Assembly: GCA_963971225.1 (NCBI GenBank)
Contig: OZ020267.1
Span: forward strand, 65,128,577 to 65,192,576
DNA from: Melieria omissa
Lineage: Eukaryota; Arthropoda; Insecta; Diptera; Ulidiidae
DNA: 64,000 nt
Direction: 5' to 3'
The notes under the pieces are model-generated. The model ran no database searches, was not told the DNA's origin, and was given only the letters and a program-made list of their open reading frames with translations. Of this stretch, positions 23,062 through 59,991 are shown in pieces. The position numbers were made by a program, and so were the translations under genes. Within the stretch, counting starts at the first letter, position 1; every line of letters starts with the position of its first letter.

Positions 23062-24954
23062 ATGTTGCCAGAGGTGTAATTTTGAAGTACTTACGTGTTA
23101 CCTTTAAAAAGTGAATACCAAAAGGAAGGCATATTATAAATATTACGTTCGCAAAAATAAAAAAATTAACTTTACGAAACAATTTTGAAAATTAATATAT
23201 AAACTTTTTGATAAAAGAAAGGGGCAAAAGTCGCATGGTTTTGAAGAAAAGTGTCAAAATAAGCATATTTTTAAAAAGTCGGTGTCAGGTATCATCGGTC
23301 TCCAAAAAGGGTCAGTTTGACACTTTAGTCGCACAACGGCAACACTGGCCGCCGCCAGCAGCAATACAACCGCGTCGATTGCATTACATTCGCATTTATC
23401 AAAAGCCGTTGGTGGTTCGTTTTCATTTCAGAGTTTTCTTTTAGTATAAAAATCTAAGTGAAGTCACCGTTTCCGAATAAAGTGAGTAATCCAATTTCAA
23501 TACTTAGTTGTTAAAAGCCTGCGGTAGTTAGAAATAAATTTGATTAATTCAATAAATTCCATTGGAGAATGTGCAGTGTGTGGGGAAGCCACGCGCCGTC
23601 TACTAGTTTATGTGGTTTTTCGCCTTTTTGTTTTTGTTAGCCGAAAATTCCCATAGGCTTTTTGTGCATAATTGCGCGACATCATTTATAACGTTCTGTT
23701 CAAGGATTGAGCGCTATGCTCACGTCAGCGCCAGCACGGGCGAGTTGAACGAACTTTTGTGCTGTTTTCTAATTACACGAATGTTGTAATTCGTCGATGT
23801 CCACATGCGCTGCAGTGGCAGCGCTGCACCGTTTGTGTGACGAACGACTTGGCCTATCCGGAGGAGATTGTGAAGCGGCTTGTGCCCCGTATTTGCATAA
23901 AGTACCGCTGGCGCCTTCAGGCGTCCCTGCTTCCCACCGACACGTGTTTTTCGGGGAATTTTTGGCTCGAAACGAGTCTGTCGTTGCGCGAAAAGCGCGC
24001 GAGTTGTGCGGCGCGGATGCAGCGAGTGCGTGTTTCGCTGTTGTCAAAACGGCACCGAATTTGCTCAACTTTCGCTATGAGCACTTTCCGTTCCTCCCCC
24101 TGCGCTTTAAATTCTGCCAATAGTGGAATCCGCGGAATAGTCCGGAGAAATTAATTGTCCTTGAACCGCTAGTTTGTAATCCATTGTGTCCCCGTTTTAA
24201 ATGGCGGCAGCTTAGCAAATTGCGCGCAAAACAGGACTTGAAAAGCCATTTTGCATTACAGCAGAATGTATGTAAAATTGTTTTTGTCAACGTTAATTAA
24301 AAGATTCATTGACTTGTGATACAATTTTGGCGGTCGTCACCTGCTCGATATTCAGCTGCTGCATGAATCTGTCTCATTTGTGTATTTGTTTTAAATTTTA
24401 TTATGAAAAGTCATAAAGTTCATTTACCCATTGAGAAATGCCGTTGAACTTTTATGACATGTTTTGAACGCTGCGTCTGAATGTCTGCTTGCGTTGATTG
24501 TATAAGGAAATTGATAATGCCAAATGGAGGCGTGGCAGATATGAAAGTCAATACTTTGTAATTTTATATTGGCTGAGCTTTTTCAAGCATCTTGGCATAA
24601 AATCAAAATACGGTTTACATTACTTACACTGTGGCCGATAACTGTCATTTAATTTTACAGTTCTAAAAAATTAAAAATTCAAAACTGAAGATTAAAAAAT
24701 AAATACTACAAAGAAGCTTGAATTACTAATTCGATTTTATTATAGACAACATTTTTGGCCCAAAGCGTGTCGTCCAAAAGTGCCTACCATTAAAAACAAC
24801 AACATCCATTGCATTTTAAATGAATCTCATTTTATTTAAGGTTTTTTATGTAATTTTAAATTTTTAAGGCAAAGCGTTTACATAAAAATACTTCTTGCGT
24901 CTATTATTATTTTTAAATTTTCTTCAAATCATATTTACTTGTTGTTTCTATATA
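23062..24954. other. Spacer with one GC-rich patch
   Basis: Mostly AT-rich. Between 23759 and 24154 a GC-rich patch is open in two plus-strand frames. One reads RCTVCVTNDLAYPEEIVKRL with codon-like third positions. I do not recognise either frame. It may be an unidentified exon or a 5' UTR. Confidence 0.3.
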
Positions 24955-25366
24955 CAGGGTCTTTCAATAAGAGATCTCATTGTAAATTTTGTGCAGTTTT
25001 TAAAGTGTCCTAATCATACAACTGTCTACGATGGCCTTTGACAAGTAAAAACTTTGAGGTTTTCAATGCATTGAAATAGTGAAAATTCACTAAAAATGCT
25101 GAAAACATTGCAGAGTCGCTTCGTAATCAATCAATGTGAATGCTTCAGCAATGATTCAAGCGTTTCAAAACAATATAAGAGCATTTTTTTTGGCGAAAGA
25201 CTGCCACCACAATGCGAAAATAACTGAGGCAGACAATTTACGGATTTTGTGTGATCCATTCCTAACCTCAAAGTTTGTACTGTGGTCTTAAATAAAATAA
25301 ATATCACTTTCTACGACGATTCTGCGCCTTTCTATTCAAAATTGCATCTCCTGTTGAAAGGCCCTA
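24955..25366. mobile_element. mariner/Tc1-type MITE (412 bp) with TA duplication
   Basis: The left end CAGGGTCTTTCAATAAGAGA and the right end (reverse complement) TAGGGCCTTTCAACAGGAGA form about 20-bp inverted repeats, each bordered by TA. The interior is AT-rich, with no recognised transposase. TA target and short TIRs point to the Tc1/mariner superfamily. Confidence 0.65.
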
Positions 25367-26576
25367 TATATGTATATATGTTTGTTTTGTGTGTATATAC
25401 GAACGTTTTATGTATGTTTGTAATTGGGATTTTGTTTGCTGCTATTTGCCCAATTTTGGTTTGCATTTTTGGTTTTGGTTTTTTGCTTGTTTGCTAACGA
25501 AATTTTTAAACTACTCGGATCAAAAAGAATTATAAAGGGTTAAGCGTTTCGCTAGTTATGCACTTTTTTATTTCTGCATATATCAATTTTTACATATATT
25601 TACATACGCATGGGCTGTAGGTATGTATTGCATCCTTATTAAATATTTGTATGAAGTCGTGTTATGTTAAAGCAATAAAAGCATTGCGATAATTTTTTTA
25701 AAAATAGTTTCCCATTCGATGCAGTTGAGTGTAAATAAAGAACATTATCTCCAAGTCCAATGGTGATTTTGTTATATGTTGTTGTTGCTTTGCTTTTCAA
25801 ATTCAATACACATACGAGTATAACATTAGAATTGTCTTAGCTTCGCACTGTCTGTCTGTATTTTGTTGTCACTCTGGTGCCGGCTGATGCATGCAGCTGG
25901 CGTCTTTGTTCATTTCTGCGAGGAGTTGGCTTAATTTTTCTTATTCAGTAATCGATCAGCATAAAACAAGGTTTCTGACTTTGTATGCATTGGTAACAGA
26001 TAGGTTGGTATAATAAGGAGACGATGTTGTTGAAAGCGAATCACTGGGGTGTTTTTGCGCCCTAAAGTATCATTGGCTGCCGCTGTAAATTGTGGCGGCA
26101 TTTCATAAATTTACAGTCGAATTCAGTAAAAATATATAATTTCGTGTATAAATATAAGGTCAAGGCAAGCATTTGGTTCTTGTTGAATGTTGGAAATGAA
26201 ACAGCTTTGAAAAATAATTATTTTATTCGTTTTTGATTAAATTCTTTGACTTTTAGTAAGTGGTGAGTGTTTAGAGAATGCAGCTACCAAATGAAAATTT
26301 CGTGAATATTGTGTTTGGTTATAATTTGCGGATCATGTTGCTAAAGGGTCCCGCATTAGCTGCTGCTGCTGCGGTTCGATGCCTCTGTTCTCTACTTGAT
26401 TGGGTGTAATGCAAGCTGCGTTTGCGTAGCTTAATTTTTTGAGTGGTACTCTTGTATATCGCTTATTTATTGGTTTCTGTTTGTGTTTGTGTGTGTGGGT
26501 GTATGCTTTCTGCTCTGCATGACTGCTGCTGCTGCTCATTCTCCACACGTGTATTGTGTTAAGATACTTAAATCAA
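25367..26576. other. Intergenic, nothing recognised
   Basis: AT-rich spacer before the 3' end of the minus-strand claudin-like gene. No supported coding frame. Confidence 0.4.
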
Positions 26577-26582
26577 TTTATT
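26577..26582 (-). terminator. Putative poly(A) signal of the claudin-like gene
   Basis: AATAAA on the minus strand, about 113 bp beyond the stop codon at 26695-26697. Confidence 0.5.
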
Positions 26583-26694
26583 ATATTATGTATTCCCTTT
26601 GCATTGAGTGCGCTGGTACATAGCCAGCCCGTTTGCCCAGCTTTGAGCCTTAGCCTAACTAAATGTTGAACAGAGTAACGTTAGGCGCAACTAA

Positions 26695-29600
26695 CTAAAT
26701 CATTAGCGCCGAAAACGGATTGTAGCGCATTATCTTCGACAACAATATCCAAAGTACGGACGTTATGGCGCAGAGCACAACGCCACCCCAGCCCAAGTCG
26801 AGGCTCCACGAAGTGAGGAAAATGCGCGCACCCAGTAGTGGTTTCGCCATAATTGCCACGCCGCCGGGTCGCGCCACAATGCCGTCGACGGTGCCGTCGT
26901 AGTCGCTGTCCAGCATAGGTCGTCCCTGCTGTCGCTTGAAGTGTATAATCATGAGTGTAAATAGCGCGAAAAGTGCTGCAAAAAACAGAAAAAGTTGTAC
27001 AAACAAGCAAAGTTGAACGTTAAGAAAGTTGAAATTTGTTTAGGAAATTCTGTGAACTTGACCCACCAGCTAGTAGGTACATGACGCCAGTGATTAGTAT
27101 GGCGCTAATTTGTCGCTGACACACGCCAAACGCGCCCACCAAAGCGGCACTGCCCAGTATTATCAGGCAGACTAGTGAGCAGGAAATTGACAAGTTTTGC
27201 ATTCCTGTAAAAATATTAAAGAGTAAATTTTGAAAATATGGTTGACATGCTAAAGTTGCTTCAACATTTGCAAATGCATAGAAGAAAAGTGAATGAAAGA
27301 AGTTACGAAAAAAGTTAGAAGGTTAGAAAAGTTAGGTTAGGTTAGAAAATTGGGTTCAATTGTGTGTGTGTGTGTGTGTATGTACAAAAGTGAAAGCATC
27401 AGTTTTAAAAAGCATGCAATACTATTTTAAATAAGGCGGTGGGATGACTTAAAATGAGAGTCTAGATATTGTTTTTTATTCTAAAGAAAAGTAAAATACG
27501 CATATTTGTTATTTTCGAAGAAGTTAACTCTCAACAAAAGTTATATTGAAATGCTGCGTAATAAAGCACTCGGACTATTTATGGTAATCTCACAACAGTC
27601 ACATTTTACTGGATTGCTTAATGCTCAATAAATTCGTCTATTATTATATTTGGCACATTCTTCTAACAATACTCATTAGGGACATTTATGCCGTTGCCAA
27701 AGTGTTTTTCATGGGAAATAAATTGAGTTTTTCGTGTGTAGTAATTGTTGTTGCTGTTGTTGTTTTGTGCAATATTACCAATACCACGAATAGCATTGAT
27801 AGCATTCACGTACATATTGCGTGCGCGCCACTTGCTGCCACATTGACCACTCACCACTCCTCTTTTCGCTTTTTATTGCAGACATTTTTTGACGCACGCA
27901 TTCGCATAAATTCGCACACTCGTTACGGTATATATAGCAAATTGCAAAGAGTGGTCTGAAGCGTTAGAAATGGCTGCAAAGAGCGAAAACAAAAACGTCA
28001 GCAACAACAGCAGCAATATTACTGAAAGCGAGACTAAACGCAAGCGTGGACGTCCGAAGGGCAACGGCGGCGCCAGCGGCAGCAGTGCCAGTGCAGCCAA
28101 AGCTGCCGCAATCAAAACGAAAGTAATCAACGGCAAACTTATGAAGCGCGCCGTGGGCGTACCGAGGAAGGTGCTGACCGGCAAGCGTGGCCGACCGCGT
28201 AAGGAATATGTTTGGGTCGAAGTGACCACAACATAAACCAAAGCAACACTTAAGTAACCGTAACAAAATCAAACAAAAACAAATAAAAATTACACAGAAC
28301 GGTTTTTGTAGTAAATTAAACTGACGAACTGTAAATTTCTGCAGCAAGTTTCGAAAATTCAAAACATATTTCATAAAGCAGTATTTTGTATGAGAGAAAA
28401 ATGTAATAAATTTTAAATACGATAATAAAGAACAATTACCACAACGATGAGCGGTTTATAGAAAAAATTATGTATATATTTGTATGTCATGTGATTAAAT
28501 CTCAACTCGTATGTGTTAAGGTTTAGTATTGAATAGCATGTCAGAAACTATAATGTTTTCTAGCATTTCATCTAAAGCCATTTATCGCTGTTCATTTAAT
28601 TGTTAGCTGTCAATGTGACCTAATAAAGTTGTCTATGTAAAAGTTCAACAGATAGGCCAACGCTACAAAAATACGCTAGTGACTAAAAATACATTAAAGT
28701 GCACGTCTGTTTTAACTGTCGGCGAAGAAACCAACCGAAAGCGCAAAACACCCAACGGACAACCGGCAGCAGCAACAGCTTTCGACGCAGTGCCCCCAAA
28801 GGCCATTTTCACATCCGCCTTGCAATTTATACAATTTATGGACATATCCGCTCTCCCCAAGCTGCTTGTTCACTTGCAAATGTGACTGTGACGCTTTGTG
28901 CTGCCTGCGCCGTATTTGCTCGTGATTTTATTTTATTTTTAAAATTTTTATTGCCGCCACAAAATGGTTGCAATTCCAAATGAAACGAAGGGCAAAACGC
29001 AGTGGACCAGTGCAACTGAATGGCAAACTGGTGCCCACAAGCTGGCGTGTTTGATGTAAATATTAAAGCAATTGAACCATGAAAATGTCCTTTACGGCCG
29101 ATGCGCGCCTGCAGACATGGAGGGCAAATGTGGTTTGGGCGCAGTGTCATTGTTTGCCGGCAGATGGGCGGATGTGCGTGTCGATTCGGTTCATTTAATT
29201 GCTAAATCTTAATGCCACAGTTTGCAATACTAGTTTATTTATATATATATTTTTTGCTTTGTACGAACTTTAGTGCGTAATTGCAATTGGACCCACACAT
29301 ATTTTATGTCATTTGAAATTAATCCCCTGAGTAGCTAAACACGGCACTGCTGGACTGCTGATTAAGCTTTTGCAAATGCAAACTCTTAAATTTTTGGCAA
29401 AAGGCCGCATTCATTTATTGGTAATTTGTCTACAGCAATAAGTCTGCGGCTCACCGCCACAAATTACGTCAAGTAGCAATTTGTGTTGGTAATTGAAACT
29501 GGAATTTCAACGCTCTAACAATGCTTATACAGATTTTGGGTAATAAACTTCTAAACTATTGTAAAGTGAGAAGTTTGTCATTTCAAGCTTTCAAACTGCA

Positions 29601-32600
29601 GCTTCGTCCATTCTAACTAAAAGCGCAATGTATGTTTGTGCAGATATAAATATGTAAACAGTAAGCATGCATAATTTATGGCAATTTCTATGAAGTAATT
29701 TTCATATAAGAAATAAGTGCAAGACTGAAGCAGATAAAATATTTGCAGGTACAACCTACGTGAATACGCGCACAAATATCACTGCTGCTACGCCTGAATT
29801 CTTTTAAACTAATAAAATTGTTACTAAAATTGACTGCGCCTACGAGTTATTGCAAGATTCATTACAATCTGGGTTTTTTCTTAAGAACTAAACAAATCGA
29901 TTTCTGGATTGAGCGCACATTTCAGCCAACCATTCAATTGAGGATGCAGAAACAAGATTTCCAAATGCATCTAAACACTCTGGTTGTGGTTTTCATTGCA
30001 GCATAATGTCCGCCGATGAGCAAATGCCCGCCGCAGCCACAGCTACAGCCACAGATGGAGCAGCCGAGAAGACTGCAGCCGCCGTCGACACTGCCATTGT
30101 TGAGCAGGAGCGCTCCGAGAAAATCCTAAAAGCCAAAGAGCTGTACAGCCTAGGGTCCAGAAATTTTCTGGTCAAAAGCTATGCCGAAGCAGCTGATGAG
30201 CTCAGTCAAGTGTGCGCACTCTACGAGGAGTTGTATGGCGAGTTGTCCGATGAGCTGGGCATGCCGTATCTGCTGTGAGTTTTGCGCACTTTTCCGCTGT
30301 GTTTATTGCATTTGTGTTGCAGTATTTAAATTCGATTTTCTGTTTTATTGTAGCTATGCAAAATCTCTTATTGCCTTGGCGCTAGACGAAAACAAAGTCA
30401 TCGATGTGCCCGATGTGGAGGAAATGGAAGACGATGACGATGATGATGATGGCGAAGCGGATGCGGATGGCGCGGAGAGCGAGGGTACTGGTTCAACTAA
30501 AGATAATGGTGCAGCAGCTGCACCATCCAGCTCGTCGAATGGCAACGCCAAATTGTCAGCAATTCCAGAGGCTGCTGACGATGCCAAGAAGTGCGATGAA
30601 GCCGATTCAACCGCTGGCGATGATGTCAGCAGCGCAGCCACAGCGTCTGCTGTAGCGCCGGAAAGCGAAAAGTCGACAGAGCAAACGCAAGTCAGCAGCA
30701 CAGACGACGATGAAGCAAAGCCCAAGAATGGCGCTGCCAATGGCAGCAGCGCATCCACCGCAACCGCAGCAGTGGCTGCACCTGTTGTCGATGGTGAGAA
30801 GCCAAGCACATCGAACGGCAACGATGAGGAGGAAGAAGAAAACGAGGCGGTGAGCATTGCATTGCATTGCAACTTGCACAGCTTGGGCGGAACGAAAGTT
30901 GAATTGTGTATTTGTTGGAGTTGCTCGAATGCAGTCTGTCTGAATTAACTTCCGATTTTCGTAATTCAAAGTTTGTTATCCGCCCACTTGCCAGTTGTTG
31001 CAAGTTTTCATTGTGCTTTTGTTTATTTGCGGATTTCGTTTTCTACTTAGGCGTCCAATCTGCAATTGGCCTGGGAAATCCTTGAGTTGGCTGCCAAGAT
31101 CTTCTCACGTCAAGGTATGGGCGGTCTGCCCAATTTGGCTGAAGTGCAAACCGAATTGGCCAATATTGAATTCGAGAACAACATACCCGATGCAGCACGC
31201 GACGACTACGGTAAGAGCCAATAAATGCAATATGCGCAAAATTGTAGATGTGTGTGTGGCTTTCATTTAACAGAGAAGGCCTTGAAAATCTATGGTGAAT
31301 TGCCCACAAACTATCGTCGCGCCATGGCCGAGATACACTACAAGATCGGCCTGACCTATTTGATGGATCAGCAGAACAAGCAGGGCGCTGAATCGCTGAA
31401 GGCTGCATGCAGTTTGATTGACGGCGAGGTTGAAGAAATCAAAGCCAAGAGTGAGCTCACCGAAAAGGATAAGAACAACATACAGGACATGGAGGAGACA
31501 AAGCAGGAGATTTGGACAAAAATCGCCGAAATCGAGGACACACAGGCACAGGTACTTTGTCACAATAATTGAACATAGATTTTGAAATTTGCCAACTGAA
31601 GAGTATATTTGTTGTCTTGCAGAATATTGCCGAGGTGCGCGCTGCACTGGACAGTTATATAAAACCGATTGCTGCAGACAATGCCGACGGTGCTGGAACC
31701 TCGACATCGTCATCCGGTGCTGGAGCCTCGTCCTCTATCTCATCGTCCACAAAGCCTACCGATATTACACATTTGATTAAACGCAAGAAGCCCGAGGAGC
31801 CCAATTCAGAAGCTGAAGCGGCCGCATCGCCAGCAAAACGTCCTGCACTGTAAGGTTGCACAGCGATGTCATAACGTATGGATTGCATTCCAGTGTTAAC
31901 AAGCAGAAGAAAAACAACATGCGCGGTCGCACACAAGAACACACATACACACACACACACACACAAAACACACGTACACACACACACACAAAACACACGT
32001 ATGCTCTTGCAGGTGACTTCAATAATTTTCTCCTAATACAATTTTTACACTCAAGCGTTGTTACCTCTTGTGCACTACAAACATTTTACGTATTTCTGAA
32101 ACCTATCCGACCTCAATTTGTTCCATGTGAACAGGCTCTTCAATGCTCGCTCTCACTTCTTAATACATATTTGAGCAGCTTGATGTGTTTTCGCAAAAGC
32201 GATATGAAAAGAAGAAAGATGAATGTGCAGTGTTCACTTCTGTCTAGCGTTTTGTTTTTTCCTTTTGAATACCTTCGACTAACTTGAATACATAAGTTGT
32301 TGGTAATAATTTATATTCAGCGCTCCTCAACTGCCGCCCTCATACTTATTGTTTCGCTCCCTTGCTTTTCTTAAGTAATAATTGAATTTATGTGCATATG
32401 TATGTGTATGGATTAAACATATTTGTATAATCCGTTTTGGTACTTGAAAATTCATAAATATTTATATAATAAAAATAAATTTAAAAATAGAACACAACTT
32501 TTTAGGTTGAAAGATGAAATCAGAACAAAGAACTTGAAAAGATGAATCAGAACAAAGGTTTTGGTAGTTGGAAATGTGCGCTCGTTTGGTTGGTTTATTT

Positions 32601-35442
32601 TTAAATATTTTGTCAGAACGGTCTGCAATTTGTTTCGATTTGCTTAGTGATTTTTAGTTCAACATACAATGATGAATAATTTTCCTCTATAAGCATTATA
32701 AAATAAATATTTATTTCGTTAGGCAAAGACTACGCTTTTTGCTAAAACTACTTTCTGAAAAATGCATCACAAACTTGTTTTCACACCTATCGTTTGTCTA
32801 CAACCAACGTTGAAAGAAACGACTATGAATGCTTGCTACAACAAACCCTTTTAAAAAATTATACAAAATACTTATGTGTAAAGGAACTTCGAATTACACT
32901 GGCTCTTGTCTTACGTACTACAGAAAGTGAATTGTTTTAGAGATGAAAAGTTAGTAAGATTACATAGTATGAGAAAACATTCCAATACGTAATTCTACAA
33001 ATTAGTACTGCATGTAGTGTTGCACAGTTGATGTCAAAGCCTATCTAAAGAACTGCTAAAAGTAGTTGATAGAGCTGGCGACTTCTACGACGTTACGACA
33101 TTGGTTAGCAGTAGTGAGAGGAGTTGAGATAGAACACCGATTTGGATCGTTTTGTTGTTTTGCAAGTGTAGTTATAGTAAATAATTTCTGAGACACCTAA
33201 GTTGTACCATACGTACTCAAGTGGGGCTGCAATGTTGTCTGGGACTCACTATGTTGCCAATCGTTACGCTGTTCCTCGCCGCGCGCGTTTTCCATTGAGC
33301 CGGCCAGATAGTTGACGCAGGGCGGTGCGCCGCGCGGAAACTTCGGGTTGCGGCGTAGTTCTTGTAATTCTGGTATGGGCAGATCGATGCACAGCGTCCA
33401 GATGCCGCCATGCATGGGCACCAGAAATACCGTGTCGCGGCGAAATCGATAATCGACTGAAAAATTCAAATCAATTTGGATAATTAAATTAAAAGCAAAT
33501 AAAGAAAAGACAATTTCAATAAATAAGATAACTAAGATAATTCTGGAAAATCGCAGCTCATATTTTAATTGAAAGTCTCACCTTTCTTGTCTGGCTTCAG
33601 CATTGCCACCTTTTCGCCCAGCATCCAATCGAGGTGCAGTCCCGAGCGATTCGTATACCGATCCAGACTGCTTCGATCCCACGTCACATGCTCCCAGTGA
33701 TCAGTCATGATGGCGGCGCACAGCATTGCCGTCGCGCTGGTCGTCATCAGCAGCGTCACGAACAGGAACAACACCGGTGGTGGACCCATGCAACAACTCG
33801 AGCAGCACGCTGTGGCGCCGGTACCACTTGTCCCGTCCATGGCCGAGTTGATTGAGGTGGGCGAGTCGACGGCTGCGCCGTTGCATCCACCCGCTCCACT
33901 GCCGCCCGCGCCCGCCTGCTGCAGTATCTTGGAGCAACTGCTGTTGCGCAACAGAATACTGTTGCTGCGTCTCAGGCTTTCGACAGCGGCCGCTGCGGCT
34001 GCGGTCGTCGCCGCCGTTGGATCCAACTGTAGCGAACTGTGCACAACGGCCGACGGATGCTCATAAATGCTGTTGTGGCGACTGGGCGCAAAGTAGTAGC
34101 AGGTCGTCTGTGTGTGATTGCCGGCCGCGCTGCTGCTGCCGCCACCACCATTGAGGCTGCCACTGCCGCCGTTCTCATTGATGGCGCTCAGGTCCTCATT
34201 GCTCGAGGTGTACACAATCGACTGGGTGAACTGATTCGAGTAGCAGTTCTGTCGGAAGGTCGAACCCGAGAGCGGTGCGTAGTGGCTGCCCTGCTGCTGG
34301 TGGTTCGCTGTCGGTTTGCCGGTGACGTTCGCTTGGACGTAGAGCGCCTCGTAGTCGTAGTGGTGCGGATTGCGGTAGATCACCGGCCACGAGCGCGTCG
34401 TCTTCGAGTTGTGACTGTAGGTGGTGGTGGTGTTGTTGGTGGTGGCAGGCGGAGGAGCGACACCGATGGCTGGCTGTTGGTAAGCGGTCGGTGAGGTAGC
34501 GACGGCAGTGGCGGCGTTGGCTGCTGTGCCAACGGAAGACGCTGCAACTGTTGCACCAACGGGCAGGGCAGCGTCGTCTGTGGGCGTGGTGGACGCTTCG
34601 AGCACTGCGGTGCTGTTCGACCGATGCGTTGAATTTGTGTCGGTGTTTGTTGGTGTGATCGTATGGGCCGTATCGTCCGCCTCGACCAGTGGCGTCAGTT
34701 CAGTGGGCTGACTCTCCTCGCTGACCTGGGCGGTTAAGTGCGCTGCGGTTTCGGTCGTGGGGCTGCTGGTGTGCGGCTGCTGCGTCGCCTGCTGGCGCTG
34801 GAGCACATTTTTCGCTGACGCGCTAATCGTTCTTGCCGCCGTAAGCTTGAGCGGCGCCGGCAGTTGCCTACTGCCGCTATTACTCCCCACCGCTCGGTCC
34901 GGACGCGCGCTGGCCACGTTCGTCGCTATCACAATGGTCGCTGTGGGCACGGCGGTCAGTTCATTGAAGTCCTCCTCTTCCACCAGTGTTGCTCCTGACG
35001 AATAAATGTTGTTAGTGTGCTTACTGAGCAGCGCAAAAGGTTTACTGTTACTACTCAGGCAATGGCTGTTGCTGCCGATGTTGATGTTGTTGTTGTTGCT
35101 GTTGTAGTTGTAGAAGATATTGCTATTTGGCTTCGACTTCGCCTTTGACTTGGTCTTGGATGTCGCTTGCGTTTGCTGTGCGTTGGGTGGTAGTGATTTT
35201 TGTTGTTGTTGTTGTTGCAGTGATAGTGTTGTTGTTGTTGATGCTGATGTTGGTGGCTGTGGTTGTGGTGGAGGTGGTGGTGGTGGCTGGAATTCACAGT
35301 AATGTCCATCGGTTGGCGACGTTATACTAACTTCCGGTACACAGCGGGCGGTCACCTTATAGCGACTGCCGCTGCCGCCGCCACCCTTCGTCCGCACTAG
35401 TCATAAGTCCGTGTCGCGTTTTTTGATTTTGTTGAGGCTCAT
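26695..35442 (-). CDS. Claudin-like (PMP22/Clc-like) four-TM protein, with in-frame TGA near the start
   Basis: Minus-strand exons are 35442-33582, 33456-33250, 27204-27067 and 26975-26695, with GT-AG introns of 125, 6045 and 91 bp. All junctions are phase 1 and consistent. From ATG 35442 there are 13 codons (MSLNKIKKRDTDL), a TGA at 35403-35401 followed by CTAGTG, then the same frame is open to the exon end. The region after the TGA is long and low complexity (Pro, Gln, Thr, Asn, Ala runs). It ends in CCSSCCMGPPP just before TM1 (VLFLFVTLLMTTSATAMLCA). The first extracellular loop has GGIWTLC, fitting the claudin W..W-C signature. TM2 (SCSLVCLIILGSAALVGAF), TM3 (spanning MYLLAALFALFTLMII across the last intron) and TM4 (WGGVVLCAITSVLWILL) follow. 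From the internal ATG at 33840 the product would be 294 residues, a normal size for the family. With readthrough it is 828. The fly gene name is not known to me. Confidence 0.82.
27361..27379. repeat. (TG)n microsatellite
   Basis: Dinucleotide run inside the large intron. Confidence 0.85.
27970..28236 (+). CDS. Small AT-hook (HMGA-like) protein, 88 residues
   Basis: A single-exon frame on the strand opposite its host intron. Two clear AT-hooks are visible: KRKRGRPKGN at residues about 23-32 and GKRGRPRKE at about 70-78, with GVPRKVL between them. Such hooks bind the minor groove of AT-rich DNA, so a nuclear, chromatin-associated role is likely. The middle is Ala/Ser/Gly-rich and the C-terminus is VWVEVTTT. 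The start context GAAATGG follows a pyrimidine-rich TTTTTATTGCAG at about 27881, which may close a 5' UTR intron. AATAAA signals lie at 28282, 28405 and 28424. The exact orthologue is not known to me. Confidence 0.8.
   Translation: MAAKSENKNVSNNSSNITESETKRKRGRPKGNGGASGSSASAAKAAAIKTKVINGKLMKRAVGVPRKVLTGKRGRPRKEYVWVEVTTT
28282..28287 (+). terminator. Putative poly(A) signal of the AT-hook gene
   Basis: AATAAA 46 bp after the stop. Two further hexamers at 28405 and 28424 could serve instead. Confidence 0.45.
30006..31853 (+). CDS. NASP: NASP-like histone chaperone (SHNi-TPR), five coding exons
   Basis: Exons are 30006-30274, 30354-30849, 31051-31210, 31274-31551 and 31623-31853. All junctions are GT-AG and phases sum to 478 codons (477 residues). 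NASP-family proteins escort histone H3-H4 (and H1) in the nucleus. TPR1 is at residues about 35-75 (KAKELYSLGSRNFLVKSYAE). It is followed, across the first intron, by LLYAKSLIALALDENKVIDV. Residues about 105-250 form an acidic and Ser/Ala-rich insert that interrupts TPR2, as in this family. Further TPRs carry LQLAWEILELAAKIFSRQ and EIHYKIGLTYLMDQQNKQ. A coiled, charged stretch and a C-terminal basic patch (IKRKKPEEP, SPAKRPAL) look like nuclear localisation signals. The start follows an acceptor CAG at 30001, so a 5' UTR exon lies upstream. The gene is nested in the claudin-like intron. The Drosophila counterpart is, from memory, CG8223. Confidence 0.93.
31939..31991. repeat. (CA)n microsatellite in the NASP 3' UTR
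   Basis: Interrupted CA repeats shortly after the NASP stop codon. Confidence 0.85.
32468..32473 (+). terminator. Putative poly(A) signal of NASP
   Basis: AATAAA about 615 bp past the stop, the first canonical hexamer I found downstream. Confidence 0.4.
35401..35403 (-). promoter_or_regulatory. Candidate stop-codon readthrough site, TGA-CTA-G
   Basis: Minus strand reads GAC TTA TGA CTA GTG CGG. TGA followed by CTAG is the strongest known leaky-stop context in animals. The frame upstream begins at ATG 35442 (AAGAACATGAGC, A at -3). The same frame downstream has no stop for about 605 codons and no ATG for 519 codons. An alternative is an acceptor at CTAG/TGCGG, but no pyrimidine tract precedes it. 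Confidence 0.55.
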
Positions 35443-37818
35443 GTTCTTGAGTCCTCCTGTCGCTGGTGTCGCGCGTGTTGGAGTTACTGTTTCTGTTGCT
35501 TTTGTTTTTGCTTTCGCTTTTGTCGCGGTAAACGGTCGTTTTGGTGATGGTGCGTAATCTATTTGTATAGTGGCGGCGGTGGTGGTGGGGGTGGTGTGGG
35601 TGGTTTTGGTGGAGAGTGGTGATGTTGTTAATGATGATGGCGGTGACTTAGATACTTGACGGATTTTATTAGGTTTCAAATTAATTTTTTGTGTTTTTCC
35701 CCGGGTGGCACAAACAAATAGCGAATGAAAACTTGCAATGGTCTGTCGGTGTTTGTTTTGTTTTCGGTTACGTGGCAACGCTTAACGAGTGTTACTACAG
35801 TTTCGGTGTTGGGTGCAAAAGCTACAGTTTAGTTGACTGCTAGACAGAGGGGGTGAGTGGGGTGAGTGAGCGTATGTGTGTGTGTGTGTGTGCGTGTGTG
35901 CGTGTGTGTATGTGGCTTATAGCTGTTTGCAATTTGACCAAATGGCGATTTGTATGCGATGTTAGAATAATTAGCGTTTTGATTTGTGTTCAGATAGTAA
36001 ACTCTATCAACTACAGCGTTTTGGGGCATTAGCGTCAAGCTATAAAAGAAGAAGAATTTAAAACAGAAAGAGATAGAAATATTCAGAGTTAGTGTTTACT
36101 AGTAATTACTGATAATTTTCGGCTTAATTGGCTCAACTGCTGGCCGGAGATGATCGATAGGCGAGTGCAAGAGACAAAGCAAGGAGACAGAGCAAAGGTT
36201 GAAAGAGAAAAGGAATTTGGACGAGTGATGCGTGCAAGCAATTAACTATTAACCATAAACATGCTTATATATGTATATATGTGTGGGTGTATGAATGTAT
36301 GTATGTTTGTGCAGATTTGACAAAGCCACTAAAATAGAGATATGACATGTTTTTGTCAAATTACTTTTAGATACATATGTGCATATATATGTACATGCGT
36401 ACATGTTTGTATGTGTTTGAAAATTTGTTAACATCTCATTTTTCATGCAATAAATATACAGAACATGCAATAAATATGCAAATGAAATGGGCATATTTCA
36501 ATATGTCACAAGTTGTGCATAAGTATTTGTGTTTGATGTAGTTAAGTCTGTATGTATGTGAGCCGGTAGTTACGTAGGTGAGCAGATACAACTTTTATAA
36601 AACATATTTCTAAAAACGACTACGAATAAGTTTGCATATAAGTGAAAGCCATAAATTTAGCAATAGAAATTATATGTACATACATATTTATATAGAGAAT
36701 ATGTACGCGATTGTAGTACACAAAAATATAAATGTGTATTAAATCGTCTAAAAATTAAATAGCAAATATTATGCAAAAGATTTAAAACTGAAAAGACATA
36801 AATTTCAAAGGTCAAAGCCAGATTTGCCGTACTTGCGCTTGCATCTTTTTCACCTAACTCACTTCCTTCTGGCGTAAATATTATAATAATGTTAATATAC
36901 CAGTTACTGTCCCATACCCACTCGCAATTCTGCACAAAATATTTGCTTTACAAACGTATACAAATTCTCGAACGAGGGTCTGCAGCTGGCAAAATTAGCT
37001 CCAACTCGAGCAGCTGTCAAGTAGCTCTTTAGGAAACATGACATGAAAGCCAATGCGGTTGGCTGCTGGTCAAATAAAAATTAAACCGCGCGCCACTAAT
37101 TAAATGTTTATTTACTTCGACCAACTTGAAAAGCTGCAAAGTTGACTGTCAATTTGAGTAGTGACGACTTGACATAAAAAAATGTTTCCCACAGAACAGG
37201 AGACCAAACGGCAAGTAACTCACTGCAATACGAAAAGCAACAACAATAAATCATAAATCATATCCTTTGGTCTGAATTAAGTCTCCAAAAACAGATCAAT
37301 CAAAATAAAAATAAACATCAACAATATCGACCAAGAAGAACAGCACTCGAATTCATATTCGACACATGCAGTAACTTTGTGTCCTTTCGAACAGGAATGT
37401 GAAATGTGACTAATGCTTGGAAAATTGATATAGAAAATCACTCACATATTTACATATATGCAATATGAATGCATAAGCGAAATGAATAATAGAACAATTA
37501 ATAAAAGTGCTCACAAGTTTTAATGGAAAATTAATAGAAATATTAGCAAAGTGGTTTTTGATTAATTTTGTTTGCTTTGCTGTAGAACTGCAAATTTTGC
37601 ATATCTAATTTTTATATGAAGGGGTTTTATGAGCTTTTAAGTAATTTGTTTACTAGACAATTATTTTGCAAACATTTTTTTTAGTTTTAATATTTTTAAC
37701 AATTTTTATTTACTATCTTTCTCTGTCTGCTTTGTCTCCGTTTGTCACATTTGGCTGTTGCATATTTTGGTCAAATCCTTGAATTATATTTTTAGCATCA
37801 AGCATTCACCTTTTCAAT
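35443..37818. other. 5' flank of the claudin-like gene
   Basis: On the minus strand the frame leading into ATG 35442 is open back to 35778 but contains no other ATG. It is Thr/Lys-rich and probably 5' UTR. A GT-rich tract lies at 35873-35914, and TATG/TATA-rich low complexity at about 36265-36310. Nothing coding is supported upstream. Confidence 0.45.
35873..35914. repeat. (GT)n microsatellite
   Basis: GT run with a few GC interruptions. Confidence 0.85.
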
Positions 37819-39415
37819 CTATATATATAAAAATCAAATAAATTTCGTATGTGTTCTATAGACTCCCAAACCACCAGACCTATTTTAATAAAATATTACG
37901 TGTGTGTTTACGGGCACCGTGTGGAAGGTTCTTAGCATAGGGGGCGTGGCATTATTCAAGGGGGCGTGGCACCGCCCATACAACTCAATTCTTTAATATT
38001 GAATATCTTCAGAATTATAAGTCGTATAGCATTGAAATTTGGTACAGTGTCATGGCGTAAACATGTTGTTCGACCGGTAAAATTTAATGGGCGTTGGACA
38101 AGGGGCGTGGCACTTTTTAAATTCCGGTGTAACTTTCGAACTATAGCGTTCACATCAGTGAAACTCGGTACAAACTAACGATTTGGTCGTGTCCTTCGAC
38201 AGGGAGAATAGGGTGGGTTTTTGACAAGGGGGCGTGGCGCCGCCCATACAAGCCAACTTTTTAATACGGAATATCTTCGGAATTATAAGTCGTATAGCAT
38301 TGAAATTTGGTACAGTGTCATGGCGTAAACGTGTCTTTCCAGAAATAAAATTTAATGGGCTTTGGAAAGGGGCGTGGCACTTTTTAAATTCCGGTGTAGC
38401 TTTTGAACTATAGCATTCACATCAATGACACTCGGTATAAACTTATTATTTAGTCGTGTCCTTCGGCAGGGGGAATAGGGTTTATTTTGGACAAGGAGGC
38501 GTGGCACCGCCCATACAACCCAACTTTTTGATATGGAATATCTTCGGAATTATAAGTCGCTCAGCATTGAAATTTGGAACAGTTTCATGGCGTAAACGTG
38601 TCTTTCCACAAATAAAATTTAATGGGTTTTGGAAAGGGGCGTGGCACTTTTTAAATTCCGGTGTAGCTTTTGAACTATAGCATTCACATGAATGACACTC
38701 GGTATAAACTTATTATTTAGTCGTGTCCTTTGGCAGGGTGAATAGGGTGTATTTTGGACAAGGAGGCGTGGCACCGCCCATACAACACAACTTTTTGATA
38801 TGGAATATCTTCGGAATTATAAGTCGCTCAGCATTGAAATTTGGAACAGTGTCATGGCGTAAACGTGTCTTTCCACGAATAAAATTTAATGGGTTTTGGA
38901 AAGGGGCGTGGCACTTTTTAAATTCCGGTGTAGCTTTTGAACTATAGCATTCACATGAATGACACTCGGTATAAACTTATTATTTAGTCGTGTCCTTTGG
39001 CAGGGTGAATAGGGTGGATTTTGGACAACGGGGCGGGGCACCACTCATGCAACTCAAATTTTTAATATGGAATAATTTCGGAATTATAAGTCATAGAACA
39101 CTAAAATTTAGTACCCTGTCGTCTCATACATGAGTCATTCTAATAAGATTTGATGGGCGTCAGACAAGGGGCGTGGCGCATTGTTTGTGACCCAAATATT
39201 TTGCTGAACTTTGAGTGGCACAGCAATGAAACTAAGTACGAACCTACCATTTTCCATTCCGAAAGACGGGATGGTGCGGGTATTGAACAAGGGGGCTTGG
39301 AACCGCCCATATAACTTAAATCTATATATATATACAAGAAAGTGACTGTATGTGAGTTACGGCATCACACACAAACGGACCGTTTGGGCGAGACGAAGTT
39401 TGCCGGGTCAGCTAG
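37819..39415 (+). mobile_element. Non-autonomous Helitron, copy 1 (1597 bp)
   Basis: Begins TCTATATATATAAAAATC after a host A and ends GCCGGGTCAGCTAG before a host T, the TC...CTAG structure of Helitrons with A/T insertion. A subterminal hairpin CAAACGG-A-CCGTTTG lies at 39372-39386. The body is an array of about 267-bp units, each with GGGGCGTGGCACCGCCCATA, at about 37961, 38230, 38497, 38764, 39031 and a divergent one at 39290. Apparent open frames here recur once per unit and are repeat artefacts. No Rep/helicase is present. A second copy is at 45350-46426. Confidence 0.85.
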
Positions 39416-45349: not shown

Positions 45350-46426
45350 TCTATATATATAAAAATCAAATAAATTTCGTATGTGTTCTATAGACTCCCA
45401 AACCACCAGACCTATTTTAATAAAATATTACGTGTGTGTTTACGGGCACAGTGTGGAAGGTTCTTAGCATAGGGGGCGTGGCATTATTCAAGGGGGCGTG
45501 GCACCGCCCATACAACTCAATTCTTTAATATTGAATATCTTCAGAATTATAAGTCGTATAGCATTGAAATTTGGTACAGTGTCATTGCGTAAACATGTTG
45601 TTCGACCGGTAAAATTTAATGGGCGTTGGACAAGGGGCGTGGCACTTTTTAAATTCCGGTGTAACTTTCGAACTATAGCGTTCACATCAGTGAAACTCGG
45701 TACAAACTAACGATTTGGTCGTGTCCTTCGACAGGGAGAATAGGGTCGGTTTTTGACAAGGGGGCGTGGCGCCGCCCATACAAGCCAACTTTTTAATACG
45801 GAATATCTTCGGAATTATAAGTCGTATAGTATTGAAATTTGGTACAGTGTCATGGCGTAAACGTGTCTTTCCAGAAATAAAATTTAATGGGCTTTGGAAA
45901 GGGGCGTGGCACTTTTTAAATTCCGGTGTAGCTTTTGAACTATAGCATTCACATCAATGACACTCGGTATAAACTTATTATTTAGTCGTGTCCTTTGGCA
46001 GGGTGAATAGGGTGTATTTTGGACAAGGAGGCGTGGCACCGCCCATACAACACAACTTTTTAATATGGAATAATTTCGGAATTATAAGTCATACAACACT
46101 AAAATTTAGTACCCTGTCGTCTCATACATGAGTCATTCTAATGATAAGATTTGATGGGCGTCAGACAAGGGGTCACAAACAATGCGCCACATTGTTTGTG
46201 ACCCAAATATTTTGCTGAACTTTGAGTGGCACAGCAATGAAACTAAGTACGAACCTACCATTTTCCCTTCCGAAAGACGGGATGGTGCGGGTATTGAACA
46301 AGGGGGCTTGGAACCGCCCATATAACTTAAATCTATATATATATACAAGAAAGTGACTGTATGTGAGTTACGGCATCACACACAAACGGACCGTTTGGGC
46401 GAGACGAAGTTTGCCGGGTCAGCTAG
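45350..46426 (+). mobile_element. Non-autonomous Helitron, copy 2 (1077 bp)
   Basis: The same 5' TCTATATATATAAAAATC and 3' GCCGGGTCAGCTAG ends as copy 1, again between A and T. It has units at about 45493, 45762 and 46029 plus the terminal one, so two fewer 267-bp units than copy 1. It carries a new 15-bp palindrome at 46170-46204. Otherwise it is nearly identical to copy 1, so the two separated recently. Confidence 0.85.
46170..46204. repeat. Perfect 15-bp hairpin unique to Helitron copy 2
   Basis: GGGTCACAAACAATG, loop CGCCA, then the exact reverse complement. In copy 1 the same place reads GGGGCGTGGCGCATTGTTTG with no hairpin. Confidence 0.85.
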
Positions 46427-58243: not shown

Positions 58244-58344
58244 TTAAGCGCGTAGTGTGTTCGTTATGGGAATGCGAATAAGTTTTTATTAATAACATTT
58301 TTATTTTAAAGTTACAAACTTATTGTCTTTATTTTAAAGACAAT

Positions 58345-59991
58345 ACTGGTTGCAGAATTGTCGCGTACGCGGACGACATTGCGATTGCAGTCTCCGGAAA
58401 ATATCTCTCCACTCTCTCTGAGAGACTTGGTTATGCACTAAGGATTCTATCCCAATGGTGCCGTGAATTTGGCCTTGACGTCAATCTCTCCAAAACCGAG
58501 GTCATGCTCTTTAGCAGGAAGTACAAGATACCTCGGTTCGTACTTCCCACTCTGAACGGCGTTAGACTTAACCTCAGCAACAATGTTAGGTATCTTGGTC
58601 TAATACTTGACTCTAAACTGAATTGGAAGGCCAACATTGCTGAAAGGGCGCGGAAAGCCTCGTGTGCTCTCTACTGCTGTAAACGAGCTTTAGGCGCAAG
58701 ATGGGGACTCCAACCTCGTGTTGTGTCGTGGCTTTACTCGGCAGTGGTTGAGCCAAACCTCCTTTACGGTGCCGTCTTTTGGTGGCCCGCCATTAGCAAG
58801 GCGGTCAACCTGAAACCTCTTGACAAAGTCAGGAGGATGGCGGCCCTTTTGGTTACAGGGGCTCTCCGTACTACACCCACCAAAGCAGTGTACACCCTCC
58901 TCCACTGGCTCCCAACTGCACAACGGGTCAAATTACACGCGAAGTGTTCTGCAGTCAGACTTCACGCGATTTCCCGCTGGGCTAGATCGGATCTTGGTCA
59001 TTCCAGGATTCTTATTGAGGACTGCTCGATGCCCACCGGCATCGACCTCATTAGCTCCCCTATCAAGCCTGATCACGGCTTCACTATACGCATCCCTCAT
59101 AGAGATGAATGGACAGGTAACGAACTAGCGACCGATGACTCCATCAACTTCTTTACCGACGGCTCCAAATTGGACAACAAGGTTGGCTGCGGGATTTTCT
59201 GCAGCCAACTGGGGCTTCGACTCTCCTTCCGCTTGCCTGATCACTGCAGTGTCTTCCAGGCGGAGGTAATGGCCATATATCAGGCCTCCATCTGGCTTAC
59301 TCGCGACAGCGCACACAGGGCAGATATCCACATTTACTCAGACAGTCAGGCAGCTATCAAGTCGCTTGCAAGGGCGACCACCTCATCTAAGCTGGTCCTG
59401 GACTGCCGTGAGTCTCTAAACGCCTTAGCCAGACGCTCCAATGTCTCACTACTCTGGGTGCCAGGGCACAGGGGCATCGTAGGTAACTGCGAGGCGGACG
59501 AATTAGCCAGAGCGGGTACGTTGCTCTCTGGTGCTTCGTCCTTCCTCGCTGTTGGAGCTCCTCTTGCATCAGTTAAACTGATGCTCAAGCAGTTTTACTA
59601 TAAAATAGCAAACGATTTGTGGTCTGAGGAACAGACCTGCAACATCTCCCGACAAACCTGGCCAACTTTCAACCTGAAACGGACAAATCAGCTGCTCAAC
59701 CTCAGTCGTCACTCGATAAGTTTAACGGTATCGGTGCTTACGGGACACTGTATCATGGGTAAGCACGCTGAAAGACTGGGTCTGCAATCCAACGACCTAT
59801 GTCGAGGATGCGGCTCTGAGGAGGAGGACGAAACCGTTCTCCACCTGCTATGTCAATGTCCTTCTTTAGCCAGAAGAAGATTTAAATTCCTCGGCTCAGC
59901 CTTTTTCGATAGTCTAACTGGACTATCTCCTCTGAATATCAGGGACATAGCCAGATTCATCATGGAATCTTCATGGTTCCAGGCGCGTTAA
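58345..59991 (+). pseudogene. ORF2 fragment: end of reverse transcriptase plus RNase H
   Basis: The frame is open for about 548 codons without interruption. It starts at the RT active site, IVAYADDIAIAVSG, then LSKTEVMLFSRKYKIP and VRYLGLILDSKLNW. An RNase H domain follows, with catalytic-site motifs FFTDGSKLD, VFQAEVMAIYQAS, IYSDSQAAIKSL and WVPGHRGIVGNCEADELA. All four acidic positions are kept. A C-terminal zinc-finger-like CRGCGSEEEDETVLHLLCQC is present. The combination of RT and RNase H fits the I/LOA/R1-type groups of insect LINEs. The absence of stops suggests recent insertion. It lacks the endonuclease and most of the RT, so it is not autonomous. Confidence 0.88.

Follow-up and report, generated by a model that had tools for sequence, protein, structure and literature searches.

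A candidate readthrough stop codon near the 5′ end of a claudin-like gene in the fly Melieria omissa

Results

A 13-codon open reading frame precedes a long frame lacking ATG

We analysed a 64,000-nucleotide stretch of the genome of the ulidiid fly Melieria omissa (contig OZ020267.1, positions 65,128,577 to 65,192,576; hereafter the window, whose own positions are used throughout), in which a minus-strand gene for a claudin-like protein appears to begin with a very short open reading frame (ORF) that is followed by an in-frame TGA. The first-pass annotation had described an ATG in good context at 35442, 13 codons, a TGA-CTA-G and then a long open frame running to a phased splice donor, and all of this was confirmed on the minus strand. 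The ATG (aagaacATGa) opens the 13 codons of ORF1, the frame after the TGA (frame 0) is open from 35400 to 33568, or 611 codons, and the exon ends in that frame at 33582, 606 codons and one base past the TGA, at a GTGAGA donor. The next in-frame ATG is at 33840 as had been noted, but the stretch without an in-frame ATG measures 520 codons, not 519. ATG 35442 is the sole in-frame AUG upstream of 33840 in 36300-33840.

Joining the first coding exon (35442-33582) to the three downstream ones (Table 1) keeps the frame and leaves the TGA as the sole internal stop. Frame, start and stop contexts and splice-compatible exons can be read directly from the DNA. The joined exons reproduced the product sizes given earlier, 294 residues from ATG 33840 and 828 residues (13+X+814) for predicted readthrough from 35442. 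Between 35400 and 33841 frame 0 has no stop, where the two other frames have 12 and 18 and shuffled sequences average 12.0 (0/1000 as low), so the whole frame is not random. In-frame ATGs are likewise absent there, where dinucleotide shuffles average 4.7 (11/1000 as low) and position-specific composition predicts 7.45 (P 0.001). The first 135 codons alone (35400-34995) contain no frame-0 stop, compared with 4.17 expected; this segment was stop-free in 33/4000 shuffles, so that taken by itself it could arise by chance a few times per thousand. ATGs are sparse in all frames of 33841-35400 (8 vs ~14 expected), and 7/8 of them fall in one frame.

Table 1 Features of the claudin-like locus (window positions)
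Feature	Position	Strand	Evidence or remark
Putative 5′ leader, from a strong 3′ splice site (tag|CTTGACG) onwards	35443..36039	-	
Upstream ORF, 66 codons (MPQNAVVDRV...), weak start context	35829..36029	-	
ORF1, 13 codons, MSLNKIKKRDTDL, and TGA	35401..35442	-	sequence; synonymous margin +2.7 nats, null 1808/23488
TGA-CTA-G stop context, preceding codon TTA	35397..35403	-	TGA itself 35403-35401
ORF of 15 codons in another frame, ATG overlapping the TGA (ATGA)	35357..35404	-	
Possible stem-loop downstream of the TGA	35342..35374	-	folding z scores
Overlapping His/Gln/Asn-rich frame from ATG 35309, 84 codons (MDITVNSSHHHH...)	35058..35309	-	
Rival in-frame acceptor, CACTAAC branch-like site, ttcgtcag/GAGC, first exon base 34994	34994..35018	-	score 4.44, 97.7 percentile
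ATG-free low-complexity N-terminal region, frame 0, 520 codons	33841..35400	-	ATG and stop counts, codon tests; tests divided
Exon end with internal ATG, transmembrane segment (TM) 1 and start of first loop	33582..33840	-	donor GTGAGA at 33581
Next coding exon, with GIWTLC	33250..33456	-	acceptor 98.5 percentile
Coding exon with TM2 and start of TM3	27067..27204	-	acceptor 99.9 percentile
Last coding exon, end of TM3 and TM4, to stop TAG	26695..26975	-	acceptor 99.3 percentile

The downstream part resembles the PMP22/claudin superfamily

Proteins of the PMP22/claudin superfamily carry the pattern W...GLW-xx-C...C in their first loop. The 294-residue form shares with the PMP22/EMP/claudin superfamily four hydrophobic segments, starting at residues 23, 166, 191 and 262 in the hydropathy profile, and has a GIWTLC, which may correspond to this pattern, at residue 104 between the first two, with the next Cys 24 residues on. 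It differs in its Pfam score (Claudin_2, 16.9 bits, E 0.0056, below the curated cut-off of 29.1) and in the ~520-residue low-complexity N-terminus, and no clear relative was found among solved structures (a single match, E 0.91). This part is best called claudin-like or PMP22-superfamily-like. A search of the fly's own genome (490 Mb, 164 contigs) with the 611-codon frame gave one match at E <= 0.001, the locus itself, with 20 candidates scored, and pattern scans of genome contigs and viral contigs gave 26 and 6 matches with no relative among them. A Drosophila orthologue was looked for through the literature and none was identified; for CG34377 an account by FlyBase curators mentions two readthrough sites (PMC4528330), and a link to the present gene could not be made.

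The region upstream of ATG 35442 looks like an exonic leader

The sequence from 36039 to 35443 looks like an exonic, ATG-poor 5′ leader, with statistical support. The acceptor at 36039 scores 6.01, the 99.1 percentile of 3075 AGs (all splice-site scores came from an untrained position weight matrix), and the base composition shifts at this site: the upstream segment 36439-36040 has an A+C content of 0.53 and nine ATGs, and three pieces of the leader have A+C of 0.68, 0.62 and 0.78 with one ATG in total. For the 397 nt of 35839-35443, with A+C of 0.70, none of 6064 other windows was as high, and 2/6064 were free of ATG; these comparison windows were overlapping 397-nt windows from both strands of the 64 kb, excluding those that touch 33500-36100. 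Transcribed and scanned fly leaders show such an A+C-rich, ATG-poor composition, and it is on this composition that we argue that ATG 35442, the TGA and the long frame share one exon. The A+C bias runs on into the coding part (0.66-0.68 in 35400-34995) and is thus no marker of the coding start. We dropped the upstream ORF at 36029 as a coding exon, as no good donor was seen by eye (donors were not scored), and kept it as an upstream ORF. ATG 35442 lies within a predicted hairpin (35434-35456, minus strand), and predicted folding is unusually stable in the 100 nt before the TGA (z -3.38, 1/200 shuffles).

The TGA lies in a leaky context

Between the two open frames the TGA is followed by CTAG and preceded by a TTA codon at the P-site position, which is a leaky stop context. 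Of the window's 6404 stop triplets (any frame, both strands), 22 stand in TGACTA and 4 in TGACTAG, which makes the leaky context a coincidence of about 1 in 290, although the finding was selected for this context; CTA follows 22 of the window's 2170 TGAs (~1 in 100). UGA-CUA alone gives 1.5% readthrough in HEK-293T cells and OPRL1 with UGA-CUAG about 31% (both PMC4132726), and a P-site UUA is described as permissive in the mammalian OPRL1 UGA-CUAG reporter. Two UGA-CUAG sites with different flanks differed more than 10-fold in the same report (PMC4132726), so the motif by itself leaves the rate unfixed. A strong tendency to TGA and a following C is described for readthrough candidates, with predicted RNA structures in 9% of those of mosquito and 10% of those of fly (Jungreis et al. 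2016, PMC5100048). The first-pass annotation had pointed to UGA-CUA as an efficient readthrough context; the context and the TTA of this candidate readthrough stop are indeed of the leaky kind. Selenocysteine at the TGA was rejected: the six matches that Rfam gave for 24500-36300 at E values up to 5 include no selenocysteine insertion sequence (SECIS), and the whole window gave no Rfam match at the gathering score.

Synonymous codon choice supports coding directly after the TGA

Where coding begins was examined with a small full codon model, trained on the later exons of the present gene and one other ORF pair, a larger full codon model, with 12 ORF stretches of 264 kb as its training set, and a synonymous-only model, trained on 11 other ORF stretches with the present gene left out. 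The training ORFs were chosen by eye and some are perhaps exons of one gene, and the null stretches are presumed to be non-coding. The variants of the frame statistic disagree; we prefer the synonymous-only form because Q-rich training genes confound AAC/CAA repeats, a preference adopted after both results were known and hence not blind.

In the synonymous-only model, one of the two model types, codon choice favours frame-0 coding directly after the TGA. The first 14 codons (35400-35358) score +7.2 nats (39/23488 null stretches, 7/2346 GC-rich ones), 35400-35332 scores +8.3 nats (null 0.5%), and ORF1 together with 35400-35332 scores +12.6 (68/23292 null, 50/4748 GC-rich null), a margin reached in 1/4000 base-composition shuffles; the signal after the TGA comes partly from a GGC repeat. 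Farther downstream 35151-34995 scores +11.3 (null 1.3%), and the whole of 35400-34995 scores +13.8 (null 4%), like the undoubted next 135 codons (34992-34588, +13.2). Upstream of the ATG frame 0 is unsupported (35601-35443, -3.4). With the small full model, frame 0 was best in 35400-35332 (186/5370 null) and from 35151 on (35151-34995, 2/5296 null), poor in 35331-35152 (5272/5274 null at least as good), and not significant for 35400-34995 as a whole (935/5082 null).

Other features in the window

The 6 kb intron 33249-27205 harbours a nested plus-strand gene at 30006-31853, which we take to be NASP; two of its exon pieces were compared with Pfam and gave no match. Two arrays of apparently the same 267-bp tandem repeat lie at 37957-39114 (4.3 copies) and 45489-46112 (2.3 copies), and a retrotransposon-like ORF, in which Pfam recognises reverse transcriptase and RNase H domains, occupies 58282-59988 on the plus strand.

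Discussion

Stop-codon readthrough at the TGA-CTAG is, in our tentative judgement, the single most likely reading of this locus, short of proof. An mRNA carrying the leader 36039-35443, drawn here as we infer it, would be scanned to AUG 35442, and the majority of ribosomes would terminate at the UGA after 13 codons. A fraction, the rate and regulation of which are putative, may insert an amino acid at the UGA-CUAG with UUA in the P site and so make the 828-residue protein, whose ~520-residue Ser/Thr/Ala/Pro/Asn/Gln-rich N-terminus, probably disordered, would precede a four-pass PMP22/claudin-like domain. The 294-residue form had been attributed to internal initiation at 33840, which we judge unlikely by plain scanning on a leader-bearing mRNA because nine AUGs in the two other frames intervene between 35442 and 33840. 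The UGA would act as a gate on the entire long protein rather than as a switch between two proteins. The first-pass interpretation as a whole agrees with the exon-like, AUG-poor leader, the sole in-frame AUG, the leaky context and the synonymous signal, but the full codon model disagrees with it for 35400-34995.

Several observations weigh against readthrough. In the larger full model 35400-34995 scores +4.4, with 2212/10220 null stretches as good and 10/1110 coding windows as low; 35151-34995 scores -8.4 (7885/10530 null as good) and 35400-35332 scores +5.2 (760/10642 null as good). ORF1, short as it is, has a margin matched by 1808/23488 null stretches (Table 1). The AC repeat at 35331-35182 misfits frame 0, with a synonymous margin of -6.9 and an adenine content at third codon positions (A3) of 0.68 that is matched in 18/1314 true coding windows, and in the small model leader composition outscores frame 0 there. 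Before the TGA, too, frame 0 runs on for 126 codons without a stop (35781-35404; 92/4000 shuffles), so that this composition easily yields open frames. RNA structure 3′ of the TGA is only mildly unusual, with folding z scores of -1.07, -1.71 and -2.41 for 100, 75 and 140 nt from the stop. In addition, the FlyBase curators' account describes annotated fly readthroughs as C-terminal extensions with very few exceptions, and a 13-codon first ORF would therefore be a novel variation; the same account notes that the detection method is biased towards such extensions (PMC4528330).

An upstream coding exon, whether it lies within the long 5′ region or outside the window, that is joined to a frame-0 acceptor past the TGA would be the ordinary route for reading a start-less exon, and the 13-codon ORF would then be intronic or part of the leader of another isoform. 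The best frame-0 acceptor candidate, at 34994, has its CACTAAC ~18 nt upstream and also counts against readthrough; both model types show a clear coding signal immediately beyond this site (for 34992-34801 the larger full model gives +11.4, typical of coding, and the synonymous one +9.6), and the larger full model gives the preceding 35400-34995 no support. However, ~2% of AGs score as well as this site, and the other candidates (35286, 35023 and 35098) are weaker. The synonymous tests and the avoidance of stops place frame-0 coding upstream of 34994, as do parts of the small full model, and the leader looks exonic. Among the 25 best segments per strand in a small-model coding scan of 35300-64000 no such exon was conspicuous, though the scan would miss small exons; the best minus-strand segment (17.5 nats) is antisense to a retrotransposon ORF and the next (17.0) lies in the AC-rich leader. 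We regard this explanation as rather unlikely, though the most probable of the alternatives.

Translation might also start after the TGA at a non-AUG codon (GTG 35397, ACG 35391, GTG 35355 or later), with the 13-codon ORF serving as a repressive upstream ORF. In-frame near-cognate codons exist, GTG 35355 even with A at -3, and there is precedent in FlyBase, where 27 genes had been given non-AUG starts, mostly postulated for want of a suitably placed AUG (PMC4528330). Such starts are possible but poorly placed: at -3, GTG 35397 and ACG 35391 have C and the first in-frame CTG (35220) has T, GTG 35355 comes after the codons with the strongest synonymous signal (35400-35358), and AUG 35442 would probably catch many scanning ribosomes first. 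We consider this route improbable. Least probable, and in our view very unlikely, is an artefact or private allele, either a nonsense change in this individual or a base lost or gained in the 35309-35170 repeat, which would conceal a start in another frame at ATG 35309. The frame of this ATG does beat frame 0 in 35307-35185 (synonymous +1.1 vs -10.1, the third frame also scoring +1.1) and in 35331-35182 (by ~17 nats in the small model once one stop is left out of the count, and by 4.2 in the larger), but leader composition fits 35331-35182 better than either frame and ATG 35309 has C at -3. The 156 Mb contig in a 164-contig assembly suggests good assembly, and an artefact or private allele would have acquired its leaky context by coincidence, as CTA follows only ~1/100 random TGAs.

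Compared with known systems, readthrough at this TGA would share with fly readthrough genes (kelch and those in the PhyloCSF sets of Jungreis et al.) a UGA with a following C, frequent among them, and an open second frame, which is repeat-rich (CAGCAGCA) in many of them. In those genes readthrough adds a C-terminal tail to a full-length first ORF, whereas the present first ORF is 13 codons long and nearly the whole protein lies in the second. The vertebrate genes OPRL1, OPRK1, AQP4 and MAPK10 are described with the identical seven-base UGA-CUAG, but there readthrough extends complete proteins and the motif is conserved across vertebrates. Searches outside supplementary tables found no published account of the present case.

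That this is a chromosomal animal gene whose principal protein arises solely via readthrough, with termination efficiency setting the amount of a membrane protein, is a somewhat less probable proposition than readthrough itself, and the dosage switch suggested in the first-pass annotation is a conjecture. If true, readthrough would gate nearly a whole protein instead of adding a tail, and with a leaky stop at codon 14 the efficiency of termination would be what chiefly controls expression. Such a gene would appear start-less or mis-annotated to standard pipelines, and other start-less first exons would then be worth searching for leaky stops near their 5′ ends.

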